Assembly (NCBI RefSeq): GCF_007754155.1
Contig: NZ_CP037423.1
Span: forward strand, 62,001 to 126,000
Length of the DNA: 64,000 bases
Direction: 5' to 3'
Source of the DNA: Stieleria neptunia
GTDB lineage: Bacteria > Planctomycetota > Planctomycetia > Pirellulales > Pirellulaceae
Below the pieces are notes generated by a model. The model did no database searches. It saw nothing but the letters and a program-made list of their open reading frames with translations, and had not been told where the DNA came from. The position numbers were made by a program, and so were the translations under genes. This document shows, in pieces, positions 7,124 to 37,691 of the stretch; position 1 is the first letter of the stretch; every line of letters starts with the position of its first letter.

Positions 7124-8968
7124 CTAATCTTCGCTGGACTGCTTCAGCTCCATCAGCCGTTGGTTGTAGGCGGCGATGGTTTCTTTGCGGCGCAACATGC
7201 CCAGAAAGACGCCCGGCCGTTCGGGGTCCAGGACCGGCAATTCGTCCAGGTTGTGCGACGTGAAGCGGCGCAGCGCGGTGTTGAGATCGTCCTCGGGCGT
7301 GAGGAACAAAAAGTTGTCCACCATGATGTCGCGGGCGACCGCCAGGTTCCACAGCGTGTCGTCGTACAAGTAGGCACGCACGTCGTCGTCACTGAAGATG
7401 CCGACCATTTTTTGATTCGCATCGACGACGGGAAAGTAGTCTTGATTGGTGTACGCCAAACGATGCACGATGCTATCGAGCGTCATGCCTTCGGGAATCA
7501 GAATCAGCTTGCGTTCTTTTTGATACAGGTCGCCGACGATCAATCCTTCCAGCACGTCGACGATGAAGTCGCCGCGGTGTGCCATCGATTCCATGCGGGT
7601 CGCGGGCTGGTTGTGATAGAGCCGGAAGTGCTGGCTGAACATGAACGTCAGCGTGGAAACCAACATCGTCGGCAGCAGCAGGCCGTAATCGCCGGTCAGC
7701 GCGCGGACCATGATGATGGTCGAGATGGGCGCCCGTGCGATGCCGGAGAAAAAACCGGCCATGCCGACCACGGCGAAGGCTTCGGGTTCGGTAAACAAGT
7801 TTGGCCAAACCTGCTGCAGGGACAATCCGACGGCCGCCCCGGTGCAACCGCCGATCACCATCGAGGGTCCGAAGACCCCGCCGGAGCCACCCGAACCGAT
7901 CGTCAGCGCGGTGGTGCAAATCTTGGCCATCGCGACCAGCAGCACGCAGGCGATGCCCAACTGGTCGGCCGCCGTCAGCGCGATCTGCAGCACGCCATAG
8001 CCGGTGCCCAGCGAACCGAGCAGGTTGGGGTCACGACCAAACCAGAGGTACAGGCCGACGCCGAGGGTTCCGGCCAGGGCGGCGCCGATGGCCGGACGCA
8101 CGTGCGGGATGATCGGCAAACGCCCGAACGCCGCTTGGCTGGCGAACAGTGTTTTGACGTAGATTGCCCCGACCACAAACAACACCACGGCCAGGGCCAC
8201 GTAGGCCGGCAACTGCAGTGGCGAGACGAAGGTGTGTTCCAAATCGGCGCCGAACAAGGGAATGAAACGCGACTCGACCGGCAGGGATTGGACATACACG
8301 CTGTAGGCGATCACCGAAGCGGTTGCCGCCGGGACGATCACGTCGGCTTCCAGATCGGCGTCGCTGTAGAGGATTTCGCCGGCGAACACGGCGCCGGCCA
8401 GCGGCGCGCGAAAGATCGCTCCGATGCCCGCGCCCATCCCGGCGGCCAACAAGACGCGTCGTTCGCGGTTGGAAAGTTTTAACCGCGTCGCCAACCAGGA
8501 ACCGAACCCGGCCCCGATCAACGCGATCGGTCCCTCACGACCGCCCGAACCACCGGTGCCCAAGGTGATCGCCGAGGCGAGCGTTTTGATGAACGGAATC
8601 CGCGCGCGGATCTTGCCGCGTTTGTTGTGGAACGCATCGATGGCGGCATCCGTCCCGGCACCCTCGGCTTCGGGGGCAAACGCATAAACCAACGTCCCCG
8701 ACAGCAAGCCGCCGACCGCCATCACGGCGACGATCATCCAGGGCGAAAAAAAATCCGACCGGTGTTCAAAACGATTGTGCTCGCCCGCCGCATCGAGCGG
8801 TTGATAGCCGGCAAACTCGGTCACCGAGTAGCGGACGACGAACTGACCGAGCACATCAAACGCGATCGCACCGAGCCCGGCGACGACGCCGATCAACGAG
8901 GCGAGCAAGATCCATTTTCCCAGCGAATGCAGCTCAAAACGCTTTAGCAGTTTCTGCAGACGTTTCAC
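7124..8968 (-). CDS. CLC-type chloride channel/anion-proton antiporter with C-terminal CBS pair
   Basis: 614 residues from the GTG at 8968. About ten membrane helices carry CLC signatures: GSGGREGP (the Glu is the external gate in CLC exchangers), GAIFRAPLAGAVFAGEILY and GSGGVFGPS. The usual central-serine motif GSGIP is replaced by GAGTD, as in some bacterial CLC-CBS proteins. Two CBS motifs at the C-terminus (ending FLGMLRRKETIAAYN) probably sense nucleotides. The reading frame stays open back to 9136, but that part overlaps the 3' end of the SulP gene and looks non-conserved. The 52-nt gap to SulP and the shared strand suggest one transcript. Confidence 0.88.
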   Translation of the reverse strand: MKRLQKLLKRFELHSLGKWILLASLIGVVAGLGAIAFDVLGQFVVRYSVTEFAGYQPLDAAGEHNRFEHRSDFFSPWMIVAVMAVGGLLSGTLVYAFAPEAEGAGTDAAIDAFHNKRGKIRARIPFIKTLASAITLGTGGSGGREGPIALIGAGFGSWLATRLKLSNRERRVLLAAGMGAGIGAIFRAPLAGAVFAGEILYSDADLEADVIVPAATASVIAYSVYVQSLPVESRFIPLFGADLEHTFVSPLQLPAYVALAVVLFVVGAIYVKTLFASQAAFGRLPIIPHVRPAIGAALAGTLGVGLYLWFGRDPNLLGSLGTGYGVLQIALTAADQLGIACVLLVAMAKICTTALTIGSGGSGGVFGPSMVIGGCTGAAVGLSLQQVWPNLFTEPEAFAVVGMAGFFSGIARAPISTIIMVRALTGDYGLLLPTMLVSTLTFMFSQHFRLYHNQPATRMESMAHRGDFIVDVLEGLIVGDLYQKERKLILIPEGMTLDSIVHRLAYTNQDYFPVVDANQKMVGIFSDDDVRAYLYDDTLWNLAVARDIMVDNFLFLTPEDDLNTALRRFTSHNLDELPVLDPERPGVFLGMLRRKETIAAYNQRLMELKQSSED

Positions 8969-9020
8969 TTGAAAGCGGTTTCCCTGAGCGAATGGCGAGT
9001 CGGTGGCGATCCGAGCCGAT

Positions 9021-11018
9021 TCAATCGAGGGCGACCGCCTCGGCTGGAGCCCTATCGTCGGGCAAAAAATCGTCTGCGCGAAGGACCTCGACGTTCTCGA
9101 CGCAAATCGTGATCGAATGTCGGTCCACGAATTCACGCCGCAACATGTCCAGCATCGACTCGCAAACGGCGGCGGAGACCACCAATTCCAATCGCACCTG
9201 GTCCTGCTTGGTCAATCCCGACCCCAGCCCCTGGCGCCCCGCTCCCCGGCAGGGGATCGAGGTGTAGCCACAGGCCCCGCAGGCGGTGAAGTGTTCGATC
9301 AGCGTGTCTTCGAGCGACTCCGACGCCGTCACGGTGACCCGCCGCATTCGCGGCAGACTGCGTTTTCGTGCCGCGTGTGGATTGTCCGCGAGCGGTTTCA
9401 AAAAATCTAAACCGCGGACCTGGAAACTCAAGCCTTCCTGCTCGAAATCCCGTTCCAGCTCGACCAATTTCTCCATCACGCTGTGGTCGACCAATTTGGC
9501 GTCCGACAGATCCACGATCAGGTTGCGGCGTTGGACCAATCCGATGTCTTCGATCTGCCGCTTGAAGGGAATCCAGTTGCTGAACACTGCCGATTGGCGG
9601 GCGATGATCTGGCTCGTTTGCTCATCGACCTCCTCGACCTCCAGATAGGGTTTAAAGAGCGACCCCAGCGGGACGCCGTTGGAGACGTGGATGATCATTT
9701 TGAGCAGGATGCCGGCGGCCACGCCGATCAACAGGTCCGTCGCCAACACCATGAACATCGTCGTGACAAAAATCGCCAGTTGCTCTTTGCCGATCCGCCA
9801 CACATGCACGAACTCCGCCGGGTGGGCCAAGCGATACCCGGTGTAGACGAGCATCGCCGCCAGCGCCGCCAACGGGATCCGGTGCAGCACGGTGGGGATC
9901 AACGCGACGCAGCAGAGCAGAAAGATGCCGTGCCAGAAATCGGCAAATCGCGTCCGTGCACCGTTGTCGATGTTGGCTTTGGAACGCACGATTTCGGAGA
10001 TCATCGGCAATCCTCCGATGCTCGCCGCACACAGATTGGCCACGCCGACGGCGACGATGTCACGATCCATGTTGGTCTTGCGTTTCCACGGATCCAACAG
10101 ATCGATCGCCTTGGCGCTGAGCAACGATTCCAAACTGCCGATGATGAAGAACATCATCGCCCACTTCCAGGCTTTGAATTGTGACAGCGCCGAAAAGTCC
10201 GGCAGCGTGATGTCGTCGAACATGCCGAACGCCCGGTCGGGCATCTTGACCAAGTATTGCTCGCCGAGCTGGTATTCGTGGTTGGCCAACGAGTAGGCGT
10301 GCTCGTGCAACAAATCAAACCCCATGCCCATCGGAATCGCGACCAACAGGACGACCATCGGTGAGGGGACTTTTTTCAGGATCGCAACACGCCGCCCCGC
10401 CAACGGCCAACAGAACATGATCAGCAAACTGACCACACCGATCGTCGCGATCGCCGGATTGGCTTGGATCACATAGTCGGGAAACTGCCGCAGCATCTCC
10501 AACGGTCCCCCGCTGGCTCCGGTCACACCCAGGGCGACGGGAAATTGTTTGATCACGATGATGATCCCGATCGCGGCGAGCATGCCGTGGACGGCCGAGA
10601 TCGGAAAGAACTCGCCCAGAATCCCGGCCCGAAAGATCCCGAACAGGATCTGCAGGATCGCGGCGGCCACGCCGACGGCCAGTGCCGCCTTGTAGGCACT
10701 CAAGTCGGCGTCGGTCCAACCGCCGATCAGTCCGTCGCCGCCGAAGTCTTCGATGCATCCGATGGCGATCACGATCAGCCCCGCCGCGGGACCCTTGATC
10801 GTCAGCTCACTATTGCTGATGAAGGTCGTCACGATCGCCCCGATGATCGCCGTGAAGATTCCCGCGATCGGCGGGTAACCGCAGGCCAACGAGATCCCCA
10901 AGCACAACGGCAGGGCGATCAGAAAGACCAGCAGCCCGGAGACAATGTCTTGTTTGAAATAACGTCGAAATCCCGCCAGATTGCCGCGGGGTGGTTCGTC
11001 GATCAGAGGGGCGGACAT
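9021..11018 (-). CDS. SulP family anion transporter with STAS and C-terminal SbtB/PII-like domain
   Basis: 665 residues from ATG 11018. The frame is open further upstream, but that part overlaps the divergent regulator. Residues about 20-440 form the SulP transporter ([18 protein letters not shown] near 35, [33 protein letters not shown]). A STAS domain follows (about 467-555; [16 protein letters not shown]). The last ~108 residues resemble the cyanobacterial PII-like protein Sbt[20 protein letters not shown], a [11 protein letters not shown]-loop-like stretch, a LELVVSA strand and a closing [17 protein letters not shown]. SulP proteins move sulfate, bicarbonate or other anions. The SbtB-like tail and nearby carbonic anhydrase favour bicarbonate, but this is inference. 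It is likely co-transcribed with the CLC gene. Confidence 0.85.
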
Positions 11019-11227
11019 CAGCGTCTTGGGGTGGGGGGATTGCAGGAAACAGGACCAGGACGACGCGGCTCGGGGCTTGTGCCGGCATGGCGTGCCGCGC
11101 ATATTCCAAGTCGCCAACGATGCCGGGTGCCGGATCCCCGGGCGTGGGGTGTCGTGGTCGGTGAAACCGAACGTCCTCGAGCGTCCAGAGCGGGCCGGTT
11201 TCGGCGGGTGATCGGCATCGCAAATGC

Positions 11228-11246
11228 AAAGCAGGGTTCGTGCCAA
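11228..11246 (-). promoter_or_regulatory. sigma-54 (-24/-12) promoter upstream of SulP
   Basis: Read on the minus strand the sequence is TTGGCACGAACCCTGCTTT. Against the consensus YTGGCACGNNNNTTGCW it differs only at the first T of TTGC. The GG and GC dinucleotides are ten bases apart as required. It faces the SulP-CLC genes and would start transcription near 11219, giving a leader of about 200 nt. The divergently encoded neighbour is a sigma-54 activator. Confidence 0.72.
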
Positions 11247-11309
11247 CCACGACGGTTGGCCTGATTCGCCGTGTTTTGGCGCCTTGCCGTCTCGTGCTCG
11301 CCCGATAAA

Positions 11310-11346
11310 CGTGCAAGCGGTTGCACGCGGCATGCAATCCGTTGCA
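11310..11346. promoter_or_regulatory. two tandem palindromes, probable enhancer (UAS) for the sigma-54 activator
   Basis: Two inverted repeats share the core TGCAA-N4-TTGCA. The first, CGTGCAA-GCGG-TTGCACG (11310-11327), is perfect over 7 bp arms; the second is TGCAA-TCCG-TTGCA (11333-11346). Their centres are 21 bp apart, two helical turns. They lie about 100 and 120 bases upstream of the predicted SulP transcription start, the usual place for NtrC-family enhancers. They are also only 35-71 bases upstream of the activator's own start, so they could mediate autoregulation. Confidence 0.65.
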
Positions 11347-11381
11347 GTCTCCGATCGGTTTGAATTCCCCAACAACGTCCC

Positions 11382-12740
11382 ATGACAGAACCCGTCCGAA
11401 TCCTGATCGTTGACGATGAGCCGCACATCCGTAGCGGTTTGGCGAAAGGTCTTGCCAAATCGGGAGACGTCATCGACACGGCCGGCGACGTCAATCAAGC
11501 GCTGGACAAATTGGAGCGATCGGAATACCAGGTGGTGATCGCCGATGTCCGCTTGCCCGGCGACCGCGACGGGTTGGATTTGGTGTCGTGGATTCAACAG
11601 CGCTGTCCGGAAACCAACACGTTGGTGATCACGGCGCACGGCACGGTCGAGACGGCCGTCGATGCGATGCGGCGCGGCGCGTTTGACTTCATCACCAAAC
11701 CCGTCGATTTGAATCTGATTCGCCAGCAAGTCGGCCGGGCCTTGGACCATGGCCGTTTGCAGAGCGAAAACAGGGTCCTTCGCGACCGGCTGGCCGACGC
11801 GGGGGCGATCTCCGAAATCATCGGCAATTGCACGATCATGCAGGAGTTGTTTCAGCAACTGCGGCAGGTCGCCGACACCGACGCGACCGTCTTCATCCAA
11901 GGCGAAAGCGGCACCGGCAAGGAACTGGTCGCCCGCGCCTTGCATGATCTGAGCAGTCGATCCGGCGGAGAATTTGTCGCCGTGAACCTGGGGGCGCTCC
12001 CGGAGTCGCTGCTGGAAAGCGAACTGTTCGGCCACGAGAAGGGATCGTTCACCGGTGCCTCACGGCAAAAACCGGGCTGCTTTGAACAGGCCCGCGGCGG
12101 CACCCTGTTTTTGGACGAAATCACCGAGATTCCGACCAAGAGCCAAGTCGATTTGCTCCGCGTCCTGGAAACCGGACAATTCCAGCGGGTGGGCGGCGAA
12201 GCGCTGTTGAGCTCCGATGCCCGCATCGTCTCGGCGACCAACAAGGACCCGCTGTCGCTGATCGACGAGGGGGTCTTTCGCGACGACCTGTATTACCGTC
12301 TGAACATCGTCCCGTTGGTGATCCCGCCGCTGCGGAAGCGTCGCGACGACATTCCGTTGTTGGTCGAGCACTTCGTCCAGCATTTTTGCCAGCGGCACAA
12401 ACGGCCGGCCAAACAGTTCACCGACGACGCGTTGGAAGCATTGGTGGCGGCCAGCTGGCCGGGCAACGTCCGCCAGTTGCGCAACGTCGTCGAGCGGTTG
12501 GTGGTCACCCACGTCGGCGACCGCATCGACGCGGACAGTCTGCCGTCGGAATTGACCGTCGTCCCAGCCGTCGGATCATCGCAGGTCCAGACCTTGGCCG
12601 AAGCGACCGAGTCGGCCGAGAAGGAGGCCATCAAGGTGGCGCTGGTCGCGTGCGGCTTCCATCGCGAACAAACCGCCCGCACACTCGGCGTCAGCGTCCG
12701 CACGCTGCACTACAAAATGAGTCGCTACGGGCTGCACTGA
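11382..12740 (+). CDS. NtrC-family sigma-54-dependent response regulator
   Basis: 452 residues. Receiver domain 1-120: acidic pocket D11/D12, phospho-acceptor D55 ([10 protein letters not shown]), T84 and K106. AAA+ sigma-54 interaction domain about 143-375: Walker A GESGTGKE (174-181), L1 loop GSFTGA (221-226, a Ser variant of GAFTGA) and Walker [10 protein letters not shown] (239-247). The C-terminal Fis-type helix-turn-helix contains [16 protein letters not shown]. It should activate sigma-54 promoters when phosphorylated. No histidine kinase is adjacent, so the partner is unknown. The divergent SulP promoter and the tandem palindromes between the genes make the SulP-CLC genes its most likely target. 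Confidence 0.93.
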
Positions 12741-12769
12741 GTGGCCAATGTCAGTGGCACAACGCAACC

Positions 12770-12888
12770 GGCCTGTCGATTAAGTGAGCCGCGACGCGTA
12801 AGCGGCCGGGCATTCAGGCGCCCGCCCGAGGCCTTACGGCCAGCGGCTCACCATTGCTTCAACAAATCCCATCAAACCGACAGGCCGC
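12770..12888. repeat. 119-bp MITE/REP-like palindromic element, copy 1
   Basis: An imperfect palindrome. The outer ends GGCCTGTCGAT and ACCGACAGGCC pair, and the inner arms GTGAGCCGC and GCGGCTCAC pair. A near-identical copy in the opposite orientation is at 47284-47398, matching through GAGCCGCGACGCGTAAGCGG and beyond. There is no ORF. It lies between the convergent regulator and carbonic anhydrase genes. Confidence 0.8.
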
Positions 12889-12975
12889 AAGCCCTCCGAT
12901 GACCGCCAAGACCGGAGAGTTTGCGCCCGTCCGCTACCATCGACGTGTGCCGTCCGATGTCCCTCGGACGTCATG

Positions 12976-13641
12976 CTAGATCGGCGGAAGCGTGCGGACT
13001 TGTGCGTCGACCGGCAGCGTGATGTCTTGCAGCGGTTTGAACTGAGCCTCGTCGGGGTCATACGCAAACACTTCACCGGTTTCGAACTTGTACACCCAAC
13101 CGTGCAGCTTCAACTGCCCGCGTCCGATCGCGGCGGCGACCGAAGGATGCGTCCGCAGACTTTCCAGTTGAACCAAGACGTTTTCTTCGACGGTCAACGT
13201 CAGCCGCTTTTCCGGGTCGGTCAGATGGTTGTAGTTCTCTTCGACGATCCGTCGCGTCGCTTCGGCGTGCTCCAGGTAGGCTTTGACCGCGGGCAGTTTT
13301 TCGATCGATTCGGGGTCCAACAATCCCGCCATCGCTCCGCAATGGGAGTGTCCGCAGATCACGATGTCGCGGACTTTCAAAACGCTGACCGCGTACTCGA
13401 TCGTCGCCGCTTCACCACCGTGAACGCTGCCGTAGGGAGGCACGATGTTGCCCGCGGTCCGCTGAATGAACAGCTCGCCGGGTCGGGTTTGGGTCAGCCG
13501 GCTCGGATCGATCCGCGAATCCGAACAGGTCACGAACAACGCCAGCGGGCTCTGTCCTTCGACCAACGTTTCGAATAACTGTTGGTCTTGGCTGAACAGT
13601 TCACGCTGAAATCGGTGAATTCCATCGACTAATTTTTGCAT
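12976..13641 (-). CDS. beta-class carbonic anhydrase
   Basis: 221 residues from the ATG at 13641, which has AGGA eight bases upstream. It interconverts CO2 and bicarbonate. The zinc and catalytic residues of the beta class are present: C39, D41 and R43 in CSDSR, and H98 and C101 in [17 protein letters not shown] (61-69) and the [12 protein letters not shown] segment are also typical. It converges with the sigma-54 regulator, separated by a palindromic element, and belongs by function with the SulP transporter on the other side. I found no sigma-54 promoter or TGCAA-N4-TTGCA site in its own upstream region. Confidence 0.95.
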
Positions 13642-32402: not shown

Positions 32403-32490
32403 CCGCGACGCGCTGGTCAGTGCCGCGACGCGCTGGTCAGTGCCGTGCCGCGCTGGTCAGTGCCGTGCCGCGCTGGTCAGTGCCGCGACG
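32403..32490. repeat. 20-bp tandem repeat at the 3' end of the hybrid kinase gene
   Basis: About four direct copies of a 20-bp unit built on CGCTGGTCAGTGCCG(C/T)G(A/C)CG. CGCTGGTCAG begins at 32411, 32431, 32451 and 32471. On the minus strand the unit encodes the last codons and TGA stop of the kinase (ALTSAARH*), so the extra copies extend from the stop codon into the 3' non-coding DNA. Two variants (CGACG and TGCCG) alternate. Confidence 0.9.
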
Positions 32491-35400
32491 CGGTTGATCA
32501 GGCCGCCGGCGTCGACGGGTTTGGCCATGAATTCGCTGCATCCGGCCGCGAGGGCATCATTGATTTCATCGTTGGTCGCTCCGGCGGTCAGCGCGATCAC
32601 GGGCACGGTGTAGCCTTGGTCACGAATCTGTTGCGTCGCTTCGCGGCCGTCCAGTTCGGGCATCTGCATGTCCATCAGCACGCAGGCGAACGGCTTGTTT
32701 TCCGCTTCGGCCTGGCGGACGGCTTTGACCGCTTCGGCGCCGTTGACGACTTCCACGACATCCGCGCCGGCGCGAGACAGCAAACGGGTCGTCACCAGTC
32801 GGACGTCTCGGGCATCGTCGGCGACCAGGACGCGTGCGTTGATTCGCGGTAAATCGTTGATGTCGGTCCGACGTGGCTTTAAATCGTCAGCCGTCGGTTC
32901 GATCATCTCGGTCGACTCCTCGACCGGCAACCGCAATGCGAACTCGCTGCCCTCCCCTTCGACGCTGGTCGCCGTGATGTCGCCACCGAGCAAGTTCGCC
33001 AGACGTTTGCTGATCACCAACCCCAACCCGGTGCCTTCGACGCCGACGATCTTGCGATCATGGACTTGGCTAAAGGTCTGAAACAACCGCTCGAAATTGC
33101 TTTCGGAAATGCCGATGCCGGTGTCGATCACTCGGAACTGGATAAAGTGTTGCTCATCCATGGAAATCACGATCCGCACGCTGCCTTCGGGTGTAAATTT
33201 CAGCGCGTTGCCGATCAAGTTGACGAGGATCTGTTCCACCCGCGAGCGATCACTTCGCAACCGACTGGGGATGGCACCGTCAAACTCGATCGTCAGCGGG
33301 ACGCCCGATGATTCGCTGCGGTGACGCATCAACTCATTGATATCGGCGAGCATGGGGAGCAGTTTGAATCGCGACCGGCGGACTTCCAACTTGCCGGCTT
33401 CGACTTTGGAAAGATCCAGGATGTCGTTGATGATCCGTAGCAGGAAGCGGCCGTTGCGGATCACGGTTTCCAGGTTGTCCGGATCGACATCGTTGCCCTC
33501 TCGGATGTCACGCAGCGACAGATCGGCAAAGCCCAGGATCGCGGACATCGGCGAGCGGATTTCGTGACTCATGTTGGTCAAGAACTGGCTTTTGGCCTGA
33601 CTCGCTTCTTCGGCCGCGATGCGGGCGGCTTCCAGATACGATTCGGTTTCTTTTCGGCCGGTCACATCGGTCATGTAGACCGCCGCGCCGCTTTCGACCG
33701 GAAACACCCGGGCGTCATACCAGCGATTCAGCCGCCGCGAATAGTACTCGGTCGTCTCGGCCCGCTGCGATTGACGGACACGCTCCACGGCAGCCAACAG
33801 CGGCGGCTCGGCTTGGTCGCCGAACAGGGTGGTGAAGCTGCGATCGAGCAAGCCCGATTCCTGGCCGGAAAAGTTCAACGCCGCCTGGTTGGCGACCTGG
33901 ATCACACCGTGTTCGTCGAAACTGATGAACGGGTCTTGGCTCTTCTCGATCACTTCGGTGATGATCGCCCGCGATGCAGCGAGTTTCTGTTCGGTCAGCT
34001 TTCGATCGGTGATATCTTCGATCAACGAGATACAACATTCGGCGGTGTTGTCGACATCGCGACGAATCGAGGTGGTCAAGTTCGCCCAGATCGTGTGGCC
34101 GTCTTTGTGAATGTAGCGTTTCTCCATCGAGTATCCGGGGATCTCGCCACGTTTCATTTGCATGAACAGCAACAGGTCTTTGTCCAGATCCTCGGGATGC
34201 GTCAGATCCTGAAACGACATCGTTTTCAGTTCATCCCAGCTGTAGCCGAGAATCTGGGAGATCTTTTCGTTGGCCCGCAACCATTCACCCTCCAGCCCGA
34301 CGTGCGCGATTCCGATGGCGGCGTTCTCGAACGTGCTGCGATACTCCAGCTCGCTCCGTTTCAAGGACTGACTCGCTTCGACCATGTCGGTCACATCACT
34401 TTGCACCCCGACGTAATGTGTCAATTGTCCATCGGCATCAAAAATCGGCGTGATCACCAACTCGTTGTAGAACTGCGTGTTATCGCGGCGATAATTCAAC
34501 AGTGTGATGCGGCAACTTTCCTGGTTCTTGATCGCGTCGCGGATCTGTTGAATGTCGGCCGGATCGGTTTCGGGGCCTTGCAGGAACCGGCAATTGCGTC
34601 CCTTGACATCTGTGGGATCGAATCCGGTCAGTTGTTGGAACCCCTGATTGGCATACACGATCGGCATGTCGTCTTTTTGTGCGTCGACGATCAGAATGCC
34701 GTTGCTGGCCGCATCGATCGCGCGGGTCCGCAACCGCAACTGTTGTTCGGCCCGTCGCATGGTTGTGATGTCGGACAGCGTGATCGCGGCCGAGGAGACA
34801 CGTTCGAATTCATCCAGGACGGGCGTGACGCGAATCTGCAGCGTCCGTCGTTTGTCCATGATGTCCGTCGCAATCTCTTTCGCGGCGACTTCACCCTTGC
34901 GAACCAACTGGCGAATCAGCGTCTGGCAAACGTCACAGATCTCCGACGGCAAGACGTCGCACAATTCGCTGTTGCGCGACACATCGAATTCGTGACCGAA
35001 CAGACGTGTGGCGCCGCGGTTCCAACTGGTGACCCGTAGATCGAGTTCGACGCCGATGATCGCATCGGTGCTGTCCTGGACGATCGACGTCAGTTTGCGG
35101 AGCTTGTCCGACGTTTCTTTGACGGTTCGCAAATTCGTCATCGTCAACACCACGCCGCTGCGTTCGCGGTAGGGCGAAGCCCGCAACAGAATCGGATCGT
35201 CGCGGCGGTCGATCGTTTCTCGTTCGATCGTTTGGTGTTCTCGGCTGACCTGACTGACCAATTCCACCAAATCGACCCCCTCGAGCGCATGGGCATAATC
35301 GACCAGCCGTTCGCCTTCGGCATCCTTGCGGCGGATCAGCAAGATATCGGCGGCCGCCGGGGTGACGCGACGGATGTTCAATTCATTGTCCACCAAGACA

Positions 35401-37691
35401 ATGCCCACGTCGCTTTCCAACATGACCGTTTCCAGGTCACGGGTGGTTTCGGTCAGCAATTGCAAGCGTCGGCTGCTTTCGGCGTTGCTGGTATGCAGTT
35501 CTTCGTTGACGCTGTGCAATTCCTCATTCGTGCTCTGCAACTCCTCGTTGCTGCTGGTCAGCTCTTCGTTGCTGGACTGCAGTTCTTCATTCGTCGTTTC
35601 GACTTCTTCGATCGTCGCTTGCAGGTTCTCGCGGGTGAATTCCAGTTCCATCTCCAGCATGCGAATGCGTTCGGCGTTGAACGCCAGGTTCGACGCGTCC
35701 GCAGGCGTCGAATCCGTGGTTGCCGAGGGATCCGCTGGTTGCGATGGTGCCGCAGCGGCAATCGGCCCGCGAGTCGGCTCGCCGGTGGAGGTTGGTCCGG
35801 TGGGTGCGTCGCTGCTGCCAAAGCTGATCAGATAATGGGTTTCCGCTTGCGTGGCGTGGAGATAGGCACTGATTCGGATCTCGATGGGATCGCGGTCGAG
35901 CACCGCACGCTCGGAGATCACCTGCAATTGATCGGCCTTCATCCGTTCGATGGCCAGGGCGATGGGCAGCCGCAGCGGTTCGACCAGGATGTCGTCGACG
36001 GTACCGGTCAAGCGTCCCGGTCGCGGGGTGGTGAATCGCGACAGATCGCCGAAGATTTGCAGCGGTCGCAGGTCGTCGTCGACCAAAATGCCCGGCGGTG
36101 CGTATTGTTCCAGGATGCGATCGTAGGACGCCACCAAAGCGGGCGAAGGCGCACGGGACGAACGCGGCCGATACGACAACTTGGCGTTGTGGAGCGGTCG
36201 TTTGCGTAATTTCAGGTCGAGCGGTAACCGTGAGTCACGGTCCTTTTGAAAGATCCGCCAATGTTTGTCGAGGATCGCAAAGTCTTCGACCAGGTCGCCG
36301 GGGGTTTCGCTGGGGCCCAGCCACAATACGCCCCGCGCTTTGAGCGCGTGGGCGAACATGTTCAGCACGCGTCGCTGCGCGTCATCGACCAGATAGATCA
36401 ACAGGTTGCGACAGGTGACCAGGTCCATGCCGGTGAAGGGCGCATCCTGCAGCACATCGTGCCGGGCGAAGACGATGGAGTTGCGAACGTCTTTGCAGAT
36501 TTCAAAACCATCGGCTTTCCGCACCAGGTACTTGTCGCGAAACTCCGACGGGATCTCCGGCAGCGATTCCGCGGGAAACTGTCCTCGCTGGGCGAAGCGG
36601 ATCGCTTCGGGGTGCAGATCGGTGGCAAAAATTTTGATCCCCAGCTCGACACCTGACTTTTCGCATTCGTGATGGATCAACATCGCGACGCTGTAGGCTT
36701 CTTGGCCGGTCGCGCAACCGGCGATCCAGGCTCGAAATTCGTCTCCGGAGGACTTCGCCGCGACGGCCGGTCGAATGCAACGATTGGCCAACCGCTGATA
36801 ACCGTCGGGATCGCGAAAGAACCGCGTGACGCCGATCATCAGGTCATCGGCCAACCGCGACAGTTCGGCCGGATCGCGGTCGAGCCGTTGGATGTACTGA
36901 TCGAGCTGGTCGATTTTGGACAGCAGCATCCGTCGCGACAAACGCCGGGTGAACGTGCCGAGCTTGTATTGTTCAAAATCCACGCCGCATGCTTGTTCCA
37001 ACCGCTGGTAGACCGATTCCAGGTCATTGCGTTCGATGAACGGTGAGCAATGTGAGATGACGTCTTCGATCGAGACGCCGGCCAGGAAGGAGACCAGGGC
37101 TTCGGCCAGTTCCACGACCGGGGCGACCACGTGCACCGCTTGGGTCTTGATCGCGTTGAGCGGCATGCTATTGAATTGAGCGCTGTCCTCGTCTTGTGAC
37201 AGTACCAATCCGCCGACGCGATTGACCCCCACAATTCCCTCGCTGCCGTCGCTGCCGGTGCCCGAAAGAATCATCGCGGCGAGTTGGCGATCGTTCTGTT
37301 CGGCCAAGGAGTGAAAGAACTTGTCGATCGGCAGATTCAGCTCGCCGTCGTCTTCCCGGTCGCGAAGTTGAAGTTGCCCGTCTTGCAGGACGACGTGTTT
37401 CGCCGGGGGCAGCAGGTACACGGTGTTCGGTGCGGGCTCGATCGCCTCGGACAATTGAACCGTGGCCATCTTGGTGCGGCGGCCGAGCAATTCGCTCATG
37501 TGGCTTTCGTGGTCCGGCGACAAATGCTGGACGACCACAAAGGCAGCGCCGGTGTCGATCGGCAATTGCTCGAATAGTGTCTCCAGGGCGGTCAAGCCCC
37601 CCGCCGATGCTCCCAGACCCACGATCGGGACCGCGCAACCGGTCAGGTCGCTTTGGAGTTCCAATTCTTGGGGCGCTTCGCTGGAATCCAT
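32457..37691 (-). CDS. CheB-CheR-PAS/LOV-histidine kinase-receiver hybrid protein
   Basis: 1744 residues. CheB methylesterase 20-205: S29 in GASAGG, H56, D148 in SGTGSDGSEG. CheR methyltransferase about 225-485 (LMIGVTRFFRDPDGYQRL; AGCATGQEAYS). A coiled coil of NEEL(Q/T/H)S repeats covers 680-740. About five PAS domains follow (755-1350); the third (about 985-1100) has GRNCRFLQG with Cys1034 plus NYRRDN and THYVGVQSDVT, the flavin-adduct signature of LOV blue-light sensors. Histidine kinase: H1376 in MSHEIRSPM, then an ATPase with NALKFT and GTGLGL. Receiver about 1620-1735 with D1674. No signal peptide or membrane helix, so it should be soluble. It has no che-gene neighbours. It may link light or redox sensing to a two-component output. 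Confidence 0.92.
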   Translation of the reverse strand: MDSSEAPQELELQSDLTGCAVPIVGLGASAGGLTALETLFEQLPIDTGAAFVVVQHLSPDHESHMSELLGRRTKMATVQLSEAIEPAPNTVYLLPPAKHVVLQDGQLQLRDREDDGELNLPIDKFFHSLAEQNDRQLAAMILSGTGSDGSEGIVGVNRVGGLVLSQDEDSAQFNSMPLNAIKTQAVHVVAPVVELAEALVSFLAGVSIEDVISHCSPFIERNDLESVYQRLEQACGVDFEQYKLGTFTRRLSRRMLLSKIDQLDQYIQRLDRDPAELSRLADDLMIGVTRFFRDPDGYQRLANRCIRPAVAAKSSGDEFRAWIAGCATGQEAYSVAMLIHHECEKSGVELGIKIFATDLHPEAIRFAQRGQFPAESLPEIPSEFRDKYLVRKADGFEICKDVRNSIVFARHDVLQDAPFTGMDLVTCRNLLIYLVDDAQRRVLNMFAHALKARGVLWLGPSETPGDLVEDFAILDKHWRIFQKDRDSRLPLDLKLRKRPLHNAKLSYRPRSSRAPSPALVASYDRILEQYAPPGILVDDDLRPLQIFGDLSRFTTPRPGRLTGTVDDILVEPLRLPIALAIERMKADQLQVISERAVLDRDPIEIRISAYLHATQAETHYLISFGSSDAPTGPTSTGEPTRGPIAAAAPSQPADPSATTDSTPADASNLAFNAERIRMLEMELEFTRENLQATIEEVETTNEELQSSNEELTSSNEELQSTNEELHSVNEELHTSNAESSRRLQLLTETTRDLETVMLESDVGIVLVDNELNIRRVTPAAADILLIRRKDAEGERLVDYAHALEGVDLVELVSQVSREHQTIERETIDRRDDPILLRASPYRERSGVVLTMTNLRTVKETSDKLRKLTSIVQDSTDAIIGVELDLRVTSWNRGATRLFGHEFDVSRNSELCDVLPSEICDVCQTLIRQLVRKGEVAAKEIATDIMDKRRTLQIRVTPVLDEFERVSSAAITLSDITTMRRAEQQLRLRTRAIDAASNGILIVDAQKDDMPIVYANQGFQQLTGFDPTDVKGRNCRFLQGPETDPADIQQIRDAIKNQESCRITLLNYRRDNTQFYNELVITPIFDADGQLTHYVGVQSDVTDMVEASQSLKRSELEYRSTFENAAIGIAHVGLEGEWLRANEKISQILGYSWDELKTMSFQDLTHPEDLDKDLLLFMQMKRGEIPGYSMEKRYIHKDGHTIWANLTTSIRRDVDNTAECCISLIEDITDRKLTEQKLAASRAIITEVIEKSQDPFISFDEHGVIQVANQAALNFSGQESGLLDRSFTTLFGDQAEPPLLAAVERVRQSQRAETTEYYSRRLNRWYDARVFPVESGAAVYMTDVTGRKETESYLEAARIAAEEASQAKSQFLTNMSHEIRSPMSAILGFADLSLRDIREGNDVDPDNLETVIRNGRFLLRIINDILDLSKVEAGKLEVRRSRFKLLPMLADINELMRHRSESSGVPLTIEFDGAIPSRLRSDRSRVEQILVNLIGNALKFTPEGSVRIVISMDEQHFIQFRVIDTGIGISESNFERLFQTFSQVHDRKIVGVEGTGLGLVISKRLANLLGGDITATSVEGEGSEFALRLPVEESTEMIEPTADDLKPRRTDINDLPRINARVLVADDARDVRLVTTRLLSRAGADVVEVVNGAEAVKAVRQAEAENKPFACVLMDMQMPELDGREATQQIRDQGYTVPVIALTAGATNDEINDALAAGCSEFMAKPVDAGGLINRVAALTSAARH

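Follow-up and report, generated by a model that had tools for sequence, protein, structure and literature searches.

Inorganic-carbon transporters have been studied mostly in autotrophs. DabA is part of DAB, a pump that converts CO2 to bicarbonate. DAB complexes are reported in heterotrophs too (PMC13144422), and SulP carriers encoded next to a carbonic anhydrase (CA) are predicted to transport bicarbonate (PMC6458275); one of the two SulPs of T. pelophila is described as rescuing CA-less E. coli, while the other is not (PMC12628692). Among the literature matches listed, neither sigma-54 control of bicarbonate uptake nor a SulP-PII fusion appears in the titles and abstract openings, and the parts consulted of a review on the dissolved inorganic carbon toolkit (PMC10880623) make no mention of planctomycetes, PII or sigma. 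Here, we describe a locus of the marine planctomycete Stieleria neptunia (genome G000; 10.98 Mb, one contig) that encodes a SulP carrier with its own PII-like domain, a CLC-family protein, an NtrC-type response regulator (RR) and a beta-CA. It lies in a window of 64,000 nucleotides, which corresponds to positions 62001-126000 of the contig. We consider it fairly likely that this locus belongs, as one of its arms, to a regulon for the supply of inorganic carbon that is controlled by sigma-54 and a two-component system of the NtrB/NtrC type. The features of the locus, in window positions, are the following:

7124-8953, minus strand: CLC-family anion channel or transporter (Pfam Voltage_CLC, E=3.7e-84, and C-terminal CBS pair, E=4.1e-15)
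9021-11018, minus strand: SulP-family carrier of 665 residues, with a STAS-like region and a fused C-terminal PII-like domain (Pfam Sulfate_transp, E=6e-57; P-II, E=4e-9)
9024-9353, minus strand: PII-like domain of SulP (predicted beta-alpha-beta-beta-alpha-beta fold, mean predicted local distance difference test score 88)
9354-9683, minus strand: STAS-like region of SulP, with limits given only roughly (alignment of residues 287-539 to 5da0, a solved SulP chain)
11230-11245, minus strand: putative sigma-54 -24/-12 promoter TGGCACGAACCCTGCT, facing SulP and CLC (sequence match, conserved in four genomes)
11312-11325, no strand: candidate operator palindrome 1, TGCAAGCGGTTGCA (palindrome scan)
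11333-11346, no strand: candidate operator palindrome 2, TGCAATCCGTTGCA, 21 bp from palindrome 1 (palindrome scan)
11382-12740, plus strand: NtrC-type RR (Pfam receiver, sigma-54 AAA+ with GSFTGA, Fis-type helix-turn-helix)
12976-13641, minus strand: beta-CA (Pfam Pro_CA, E=9.3e-48; nearest solved chain 5swc)

SulP ends at 9021 and CLC has its first ATG at 8953 (an in-frame GTG at 8968 being a possible earlier start); the two genes are on the same strand and closely spaced. The RR gene is divergent from SulP and no kinase gene adjoins it; the CA gene is convergent with that of the RR, set apart and outside the SulP unit. The initial annotation had proposed these four genes as a regulated module for inorganic carbon or other anions, and Pfam matches place all four where it had put them, with CA as a separate gene and the PII domain in the carrier itself. 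The tandem palindromes and the sigma-54 promoter are additions to that listing.

The two palindromes, both perfect matches to TGCAA-N4-TTGCA, start at 11312 and 11333 in the gap between SulP and RR, 66-101 bp upstream of a near-consensus sigma-54 promoter reading SulP-PII and then CLC. In an alignment of four orthologous intergenic regions, both halves of the palindromes and the core of the promoter are conserved, with a single A/G change in the promoter. By sequence, the SulP-CLC unit is preceded by a predicted enhancer-dependent sigma-54 promoter with upstream tandem sites. Such tandem sites are also found upstream of dabA in many relatives, commonly with a spacing of 21 bp (20 or 23 in some), and TGGCAC-N5-TTGC-like promoters lie about 65-200 bp downstream of them. 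We scanned 117 loci (2.17 Mb) with thresholds set after viewing the window: at most one mismatch per palindrome, a spacing of 19-24 and a sigma-54 score of 13. The scan returned 48 pairs, 47 of them distinct and spread over 39 loci; 46 of the 48 are located at most 800 bp upstream of dabA, of SulP, or of an RR or kinase match, while no pair was obtained in any of three Markov-1 controls or in the reversed sequence. Read in both directions, the pairs give 96 oriented pairs, 36 of them with a downstream sigma-54 score of at least 13. When the spacing was fixed at 21 bp and up to three mismatches were allowed, 20 matches were counted in 8 genomes, and the backwards pattern gave one. In G000, only the locus described here has a perfect 21-bp tandem site. 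This genome possesses 10 palindromes: two at this locus, one located 248 bp ahead of where the match to the single detected dabA begins, and seven others, five of which are inside open reading frames (mechanical call).

The RR combines a receiver, an AAA+ domain with a GAFTGA-like loop (GSFTGA) and a helix-turn-helix, as expected of an NtrC-type activator. From 199 sampled genomes of the family, 70 encode a close RR (E<=1e-160). Considering the 46 dabA loci of the family, the operator was detected at 32 of the 35 distinct loci in genomes with the RR, versus none of 11 in genomes without it (Fisher 2.7e-8, kinship uncorrected). The three misses in RR genomes display single palindromes with one mismatch, and for one of these loci the available upstream sequence is limited to 415 bp.

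We then looked at the genes surrounding SulP. SulP matches at E<=1e-100 are present in 99 of the 199 family genomes and, in a phylum-wide sample of 246 genomes, 115 have a SulP-family match of any kind at E<=0.001. Loci of 15 phylum matches and 60 family matches, taken from among the best, and of one paralog from G000 were fetched; with the window and without the paralog locus, they form a set of 77 SulP copies (76 loci, 74 genomes) that was picked by similarity and is not random. Within 9.5 kb, dabA was found near 56 of the 77 copies, and dabA or dabB near 57. Typically, DabA is followed by two NuoL-like DabB and SulP-PII, often with a histidine kinase, RR or CA on the opposite strand. A close RR match (>=55% identity) is present in 21 of the 76 loci and weaker ones in nine; a CA match is near 13 copies and a CLC of the window type near five, although some contigs end early, so that absences of neighbours are not firm. 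Although the exact four-gene set is rare, its components form part of a broader system for inorganic carbon. The link to inorganic carbon suggested by the initial annotation is supported by dabA near SulP, by the DabA-DabB pair that two sister genomes have at this locus and by a PII fold of the CPII/SbtB type.

In G000, the window contains no DabA match (PF10070). The single match of the genome is at 2.62 Mb, in the one dabA-dabB-dabB operon found, 2.5 Mb from the window and with the same palindrome upstream. This DabA (PF10070, E=6.9e-235) displays CxDxR and H-x14-C, whose spacing is that reported for the zinc and Asp-Arg residues of DAB2 (PMC13144422). Beside the operon is a gene for a kinase with a PAS domain, HisKA and HATPase and, as read from the sequence, two membrane stretches; it shares 44% identity with the kinase linked to dab in G137, and no RR gene adjoins it. 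As kinase and RR each lack a partner in G000 and are adjacent in other genomes, we infer that they form a pair. A transposase-like gene (IS110-like by eye; L166:7127-8524) is located between this kinase and dabA, and in G440 and G428 a second CA match occupies the position of the kinase-dabA interval. Within the window itself, a large hybrid protein with CheB/CheR-like, PAS and histidine-kinase parts, judged by eye, is encoded at 32457-37691.

Regarding the carrier, SulP passes the gathering score of PF00916 (193.6 bits vs. 23.2), and the Pfam scan of the protein gave no separate STAS match. No CA domain is fused to the window SulP, the fused domain being PII according to Pfam. The model of this domain matches in fold both CPII, which was solved with bicarbonate, and SbtB, and CPII/SbtB is its nearest predicted class; it is fused to SulP, unlike the small free-standing proteins of that class. 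From the 77 SulP copies, 57 are long enough (>=635 residues) for a PII domain, and no stand-alone PII gene was detected, with the model used, beside the PII-less copies in the fetched loci. A stretch of ten residues is kept in 71 of the 77 copies, which sets this type of SulP apart as its own subfamily. By analogy with SbtB, the fused domain most likely gates SulP in cis, and the window SulP probably carries bicarbonate. Other SulP genes were seen along the way. A second SulP of G000 (L077, G000:C1:210000-229000) is followed on the same strand by a CA-like stretch, within an open frame of 806 residues, and is a possible classical SulP-CA fusion. Three PII-less copies (L115, L118 and L119) are close to NhaD-like antiporter matches. 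In contigs titled Candidatus Kuenenia stuttgartiensis, an anammox bacterium (L253-L256), SulP is 56-58% identical to that of the window, and the match ends at residues 555-560, hence without the PII region.

Alternatively, SulP-PII might carry sulfate, a C4-dicarboxylate or another anion, with the RR as a DctD-like activator responding to this substrate. The names of several homologues in their source records (DauA, sulfate transporter, sulfate permease-like) agree with this, as do the generic SulP family scores and the T. pelophila SulP that failed to rescue CA-less E. coli. We nevertheless judge it unlikely, given the promoter signals common to SulP and dabA, the frequency of dabA and the CA matches around the SulP copies, and a PII domain of a carbon-regulatory class.

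The CLC protein keeps the gating glutamate (GREGP), as do all 41 distinct copies among the 61 rows examined. In the alignment to ClcA chains, the position of the proton glutamate (E203 of ClcA) is occupied by Ile (VFAGEILY), a residue found in 40 of the 41 copies, the last one having Val, and GAGTD stands where ClcA has GSGIP. The initial annotation had taken this protein for an anion/proton exchanger; that reading, and with it a plain H+/Cl- exchanger, is rejected as unsupported, because the proton glutamate is replaced. In each of the genera g1, g225 and g210, CLC genes are part of Dab or SulP loci, and they directly follow SulP in the window and in G384. This last arrangement would also suit a locus devoted to pH, chloride or osmotic balance, where SulP is an anion exchanger, CLC recycles chloride and carbon nutrition is secondary. 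Some SLC26/SulP proteins do exchange chloride and bicarbonate, and NhaD-like antiporter matches are near three of the 77 SulP copies. However, 72 of these copies have no CLC match within 9.5 kb, dabA is common around them and the palindromes precede dabA, which makes this explanation quite improbable in our view.

The beta-CA satisfies PF00484 and has the zinc-site motifs CSDSR and GHSHC; CSDSR and GH[ST]HC are present in all 13 distinct copies among 16 rows. Its nearest solved chain, 5swc (E=2.3e-67), is presumably the cyanobacterial carboxysomal CcaA.

The same locus was compared between sister genomes. The outer genes are kept in G391 and G415, and the inner block consists there of DabA-DabB-CLC, RR and CA, without SulP. 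In G428 and G422, the inner block is DabA-DabB-CLC-SulP, RR and CA. In G000 and G440, DabA-DabB is missing and CLC-SulP, RR and CA remain. SulP-PII therefore occupies a locus where the CO2-hydrating pump stands in close relatives. The four genes are found together in only 4 of the 14 genomes of the genus (G000, G440, G428 and G422), G434 being undecidable since its SulP, CLC and best RR are each on another contig. Among the fetched loci, these four are the only ones with the complete set, and a four-gene module conserved across Planctomycetes is rejected. In quick trees, DabA of G000 groups with those of G391 and G415 (Shimodaira-Hasegawa-like approximate likelihood ratio test 100), and the window SulP is placed among other genera in a clade of 25 rows (support 99) that does not include the SulP of G391 and G415. 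On these positions, vertical inheritance of SulP as a partner of the G000 dab operon is rejected; the window SulP would derive from another kind of dab locus, one with CA and this RR, or from transfer. That the locus is a local accident, the RR controlling only its own gene and SulP with CLC and CA as bystanders, would fit the scarcity of the four-gene set, the CA without operator and the SulP tree, but is very improbable considering the palindrome before dabA in G000 and the CLC genes at Dab or SulP loci of three genera.

Several observations weigh against the regulon. The single palindrome is not enriched in G000 (10 vs. 18 for the backwards pattern). The sigma-54 match before dabA of this genome is weaker (12.2), and a second one reaching 13 of 15.4 is upstream of the palindromes. 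The CLC-DabAB unit of G391 and G415 has no palindrome though the RR adjoins it. The RR survey was restricted to the 8 top first-look candidates of each genome. On the tree, the link between RR and operator is reduced to four independent pairs (on average 3.8 of 4 in the expected direction, none opposed, median p=0.125), and kinship thus weakens the statistic given above. Among the dabA-locus rows of RR genomes, which list one G272 locus twice, 8 of 36 do not attain a sigma-54 score of 13, which one of the 11 loci without RR does. A paralogous NtrC-type regulator with an efflux-like neighbourhood (L225 and L226, from G417 and G440) also bears tandem TGCAA-N4-TTGCA sites, so that cross-talk is possible. 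The SulP scores are far below the equivalog cut-offs of BicA (NF050096; 107.7 vs. 880) and DauA (NF008660; 146.9 vs. 614) and that of the curated sulP model, and the NCBIfam models name no function. In a pairwise alignment with BicA (6ki1), at what we take to be the Na+/HCO3- site, the sodium-site Asp is replaced by Glu and the anion-site Ala-Thr by Glu-Ile. CLC adjoins SulP or Dab genes in at least 9 of 67 CLC-bearing genomes (coordinates compared by eye). Finally, the 241 bp upstream of CA contain neither a palindrome (up to two mismatches) nor a strong sigma-54 site, and an operator for CA is rejected on this basis. The control by the sigma-54 regulator that the initial annotation extended to the whole set is thus supported by promoter and palindromes for SulP and, by position, for CLC; its extension to CA, a separate convergent gene, is not supported. 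That annotation was right about the theme but misjudged one of the parts as well as the unit, which is most likely a regulon and not a four-gene cassette.

Within such a regulon, the PAS-type kinase beside the dab operon would phosphorylate the window RR when inorganic carbon, or a signal linked to it, falls. The RR would bind the tandem sites, loop to the sigma-54 polymerase and raise the expression of SulP-CLC and of the dab systems. DabA/DabB would hydrate CO2 vectorially at the membrane and SulP would import bicarbonate, under the control in cis of its PII-like domain, which may sense adenylates and/or bicarbonate as SbtB acts in trans on SbtA. CLC, probably not a classical 2Cl-/H+ exchanger, would offer a chloride path for charge balance, and CA, expressed separately, would equilibrate CO2 and bicarbonate in the cytoplasm. 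No match to the RuBisCO large chain was found in G000, and the carbon supplied would feed other carboxylases. More tentatively, and with somewhat less than an even chance of being right in full, RuBisCO-less Planctomycetes might possess a dedicated sigma-54/NtrC-type low-inorganic-carbon regulon, which induces DAB and a bicarbonate SulP gated in cis by a CPII/SbtB-like domain sensing energy or bicarbonate, and to which a non-proton-coupled CLC was added in this lineage as a counter-ion path. If true, a regulon of DAB and SulP would give a testable account of bicarbonate supply in these bacteria and a better name for the many SulP-PII genes that currently go by DauA or sulfate transporter. SulP-PII also offers a carrier and sensor in one chain for the study of PII gating, and the candidate operator an immediate genetic handle.

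Compared with known systems, the locus shares a SulP and beta-CA neighbourhood with the adjacent or fused SulP-CA type, for which bicarbonate transport is predicted (Felce-Saier; can2-sulP of A. ferrooxidans, PMC6458275), but its CA is separate and convergent, its SulP has a PII domain, and a sigma-54 regulator and CLC are present. BicA (6ki1), the cyanobacterial SulP bicarbonate transporter, belongs to the same family; the window SulP adds PII, differs in site residues and scores below the BicA cut-off. With CPII of Thiomonas and SbtB of cyanobacteria, the predicted fold and the tie to a probable bicarbonate carrier are shared, whereas the domain is here fused to the carrier. The DAB/DAC pumps (DabA, DabB; PMC13144422) are found at the syntenic locus of two sisters without SulP and would be co-regulated through the putative operator; they are absent from the window, the dab operon of G000 being 2.5 Mb off and comprising two DabB-like genes. 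Lastly, the RR shares with NtrC-type activators its domains, the GSFTGA motif, the position of the enhancer and the -24/-12 promoter, but its apparent targets are inorganic-carbon genes and not nitrogen, acetoacetate or dicarboxylate genes.

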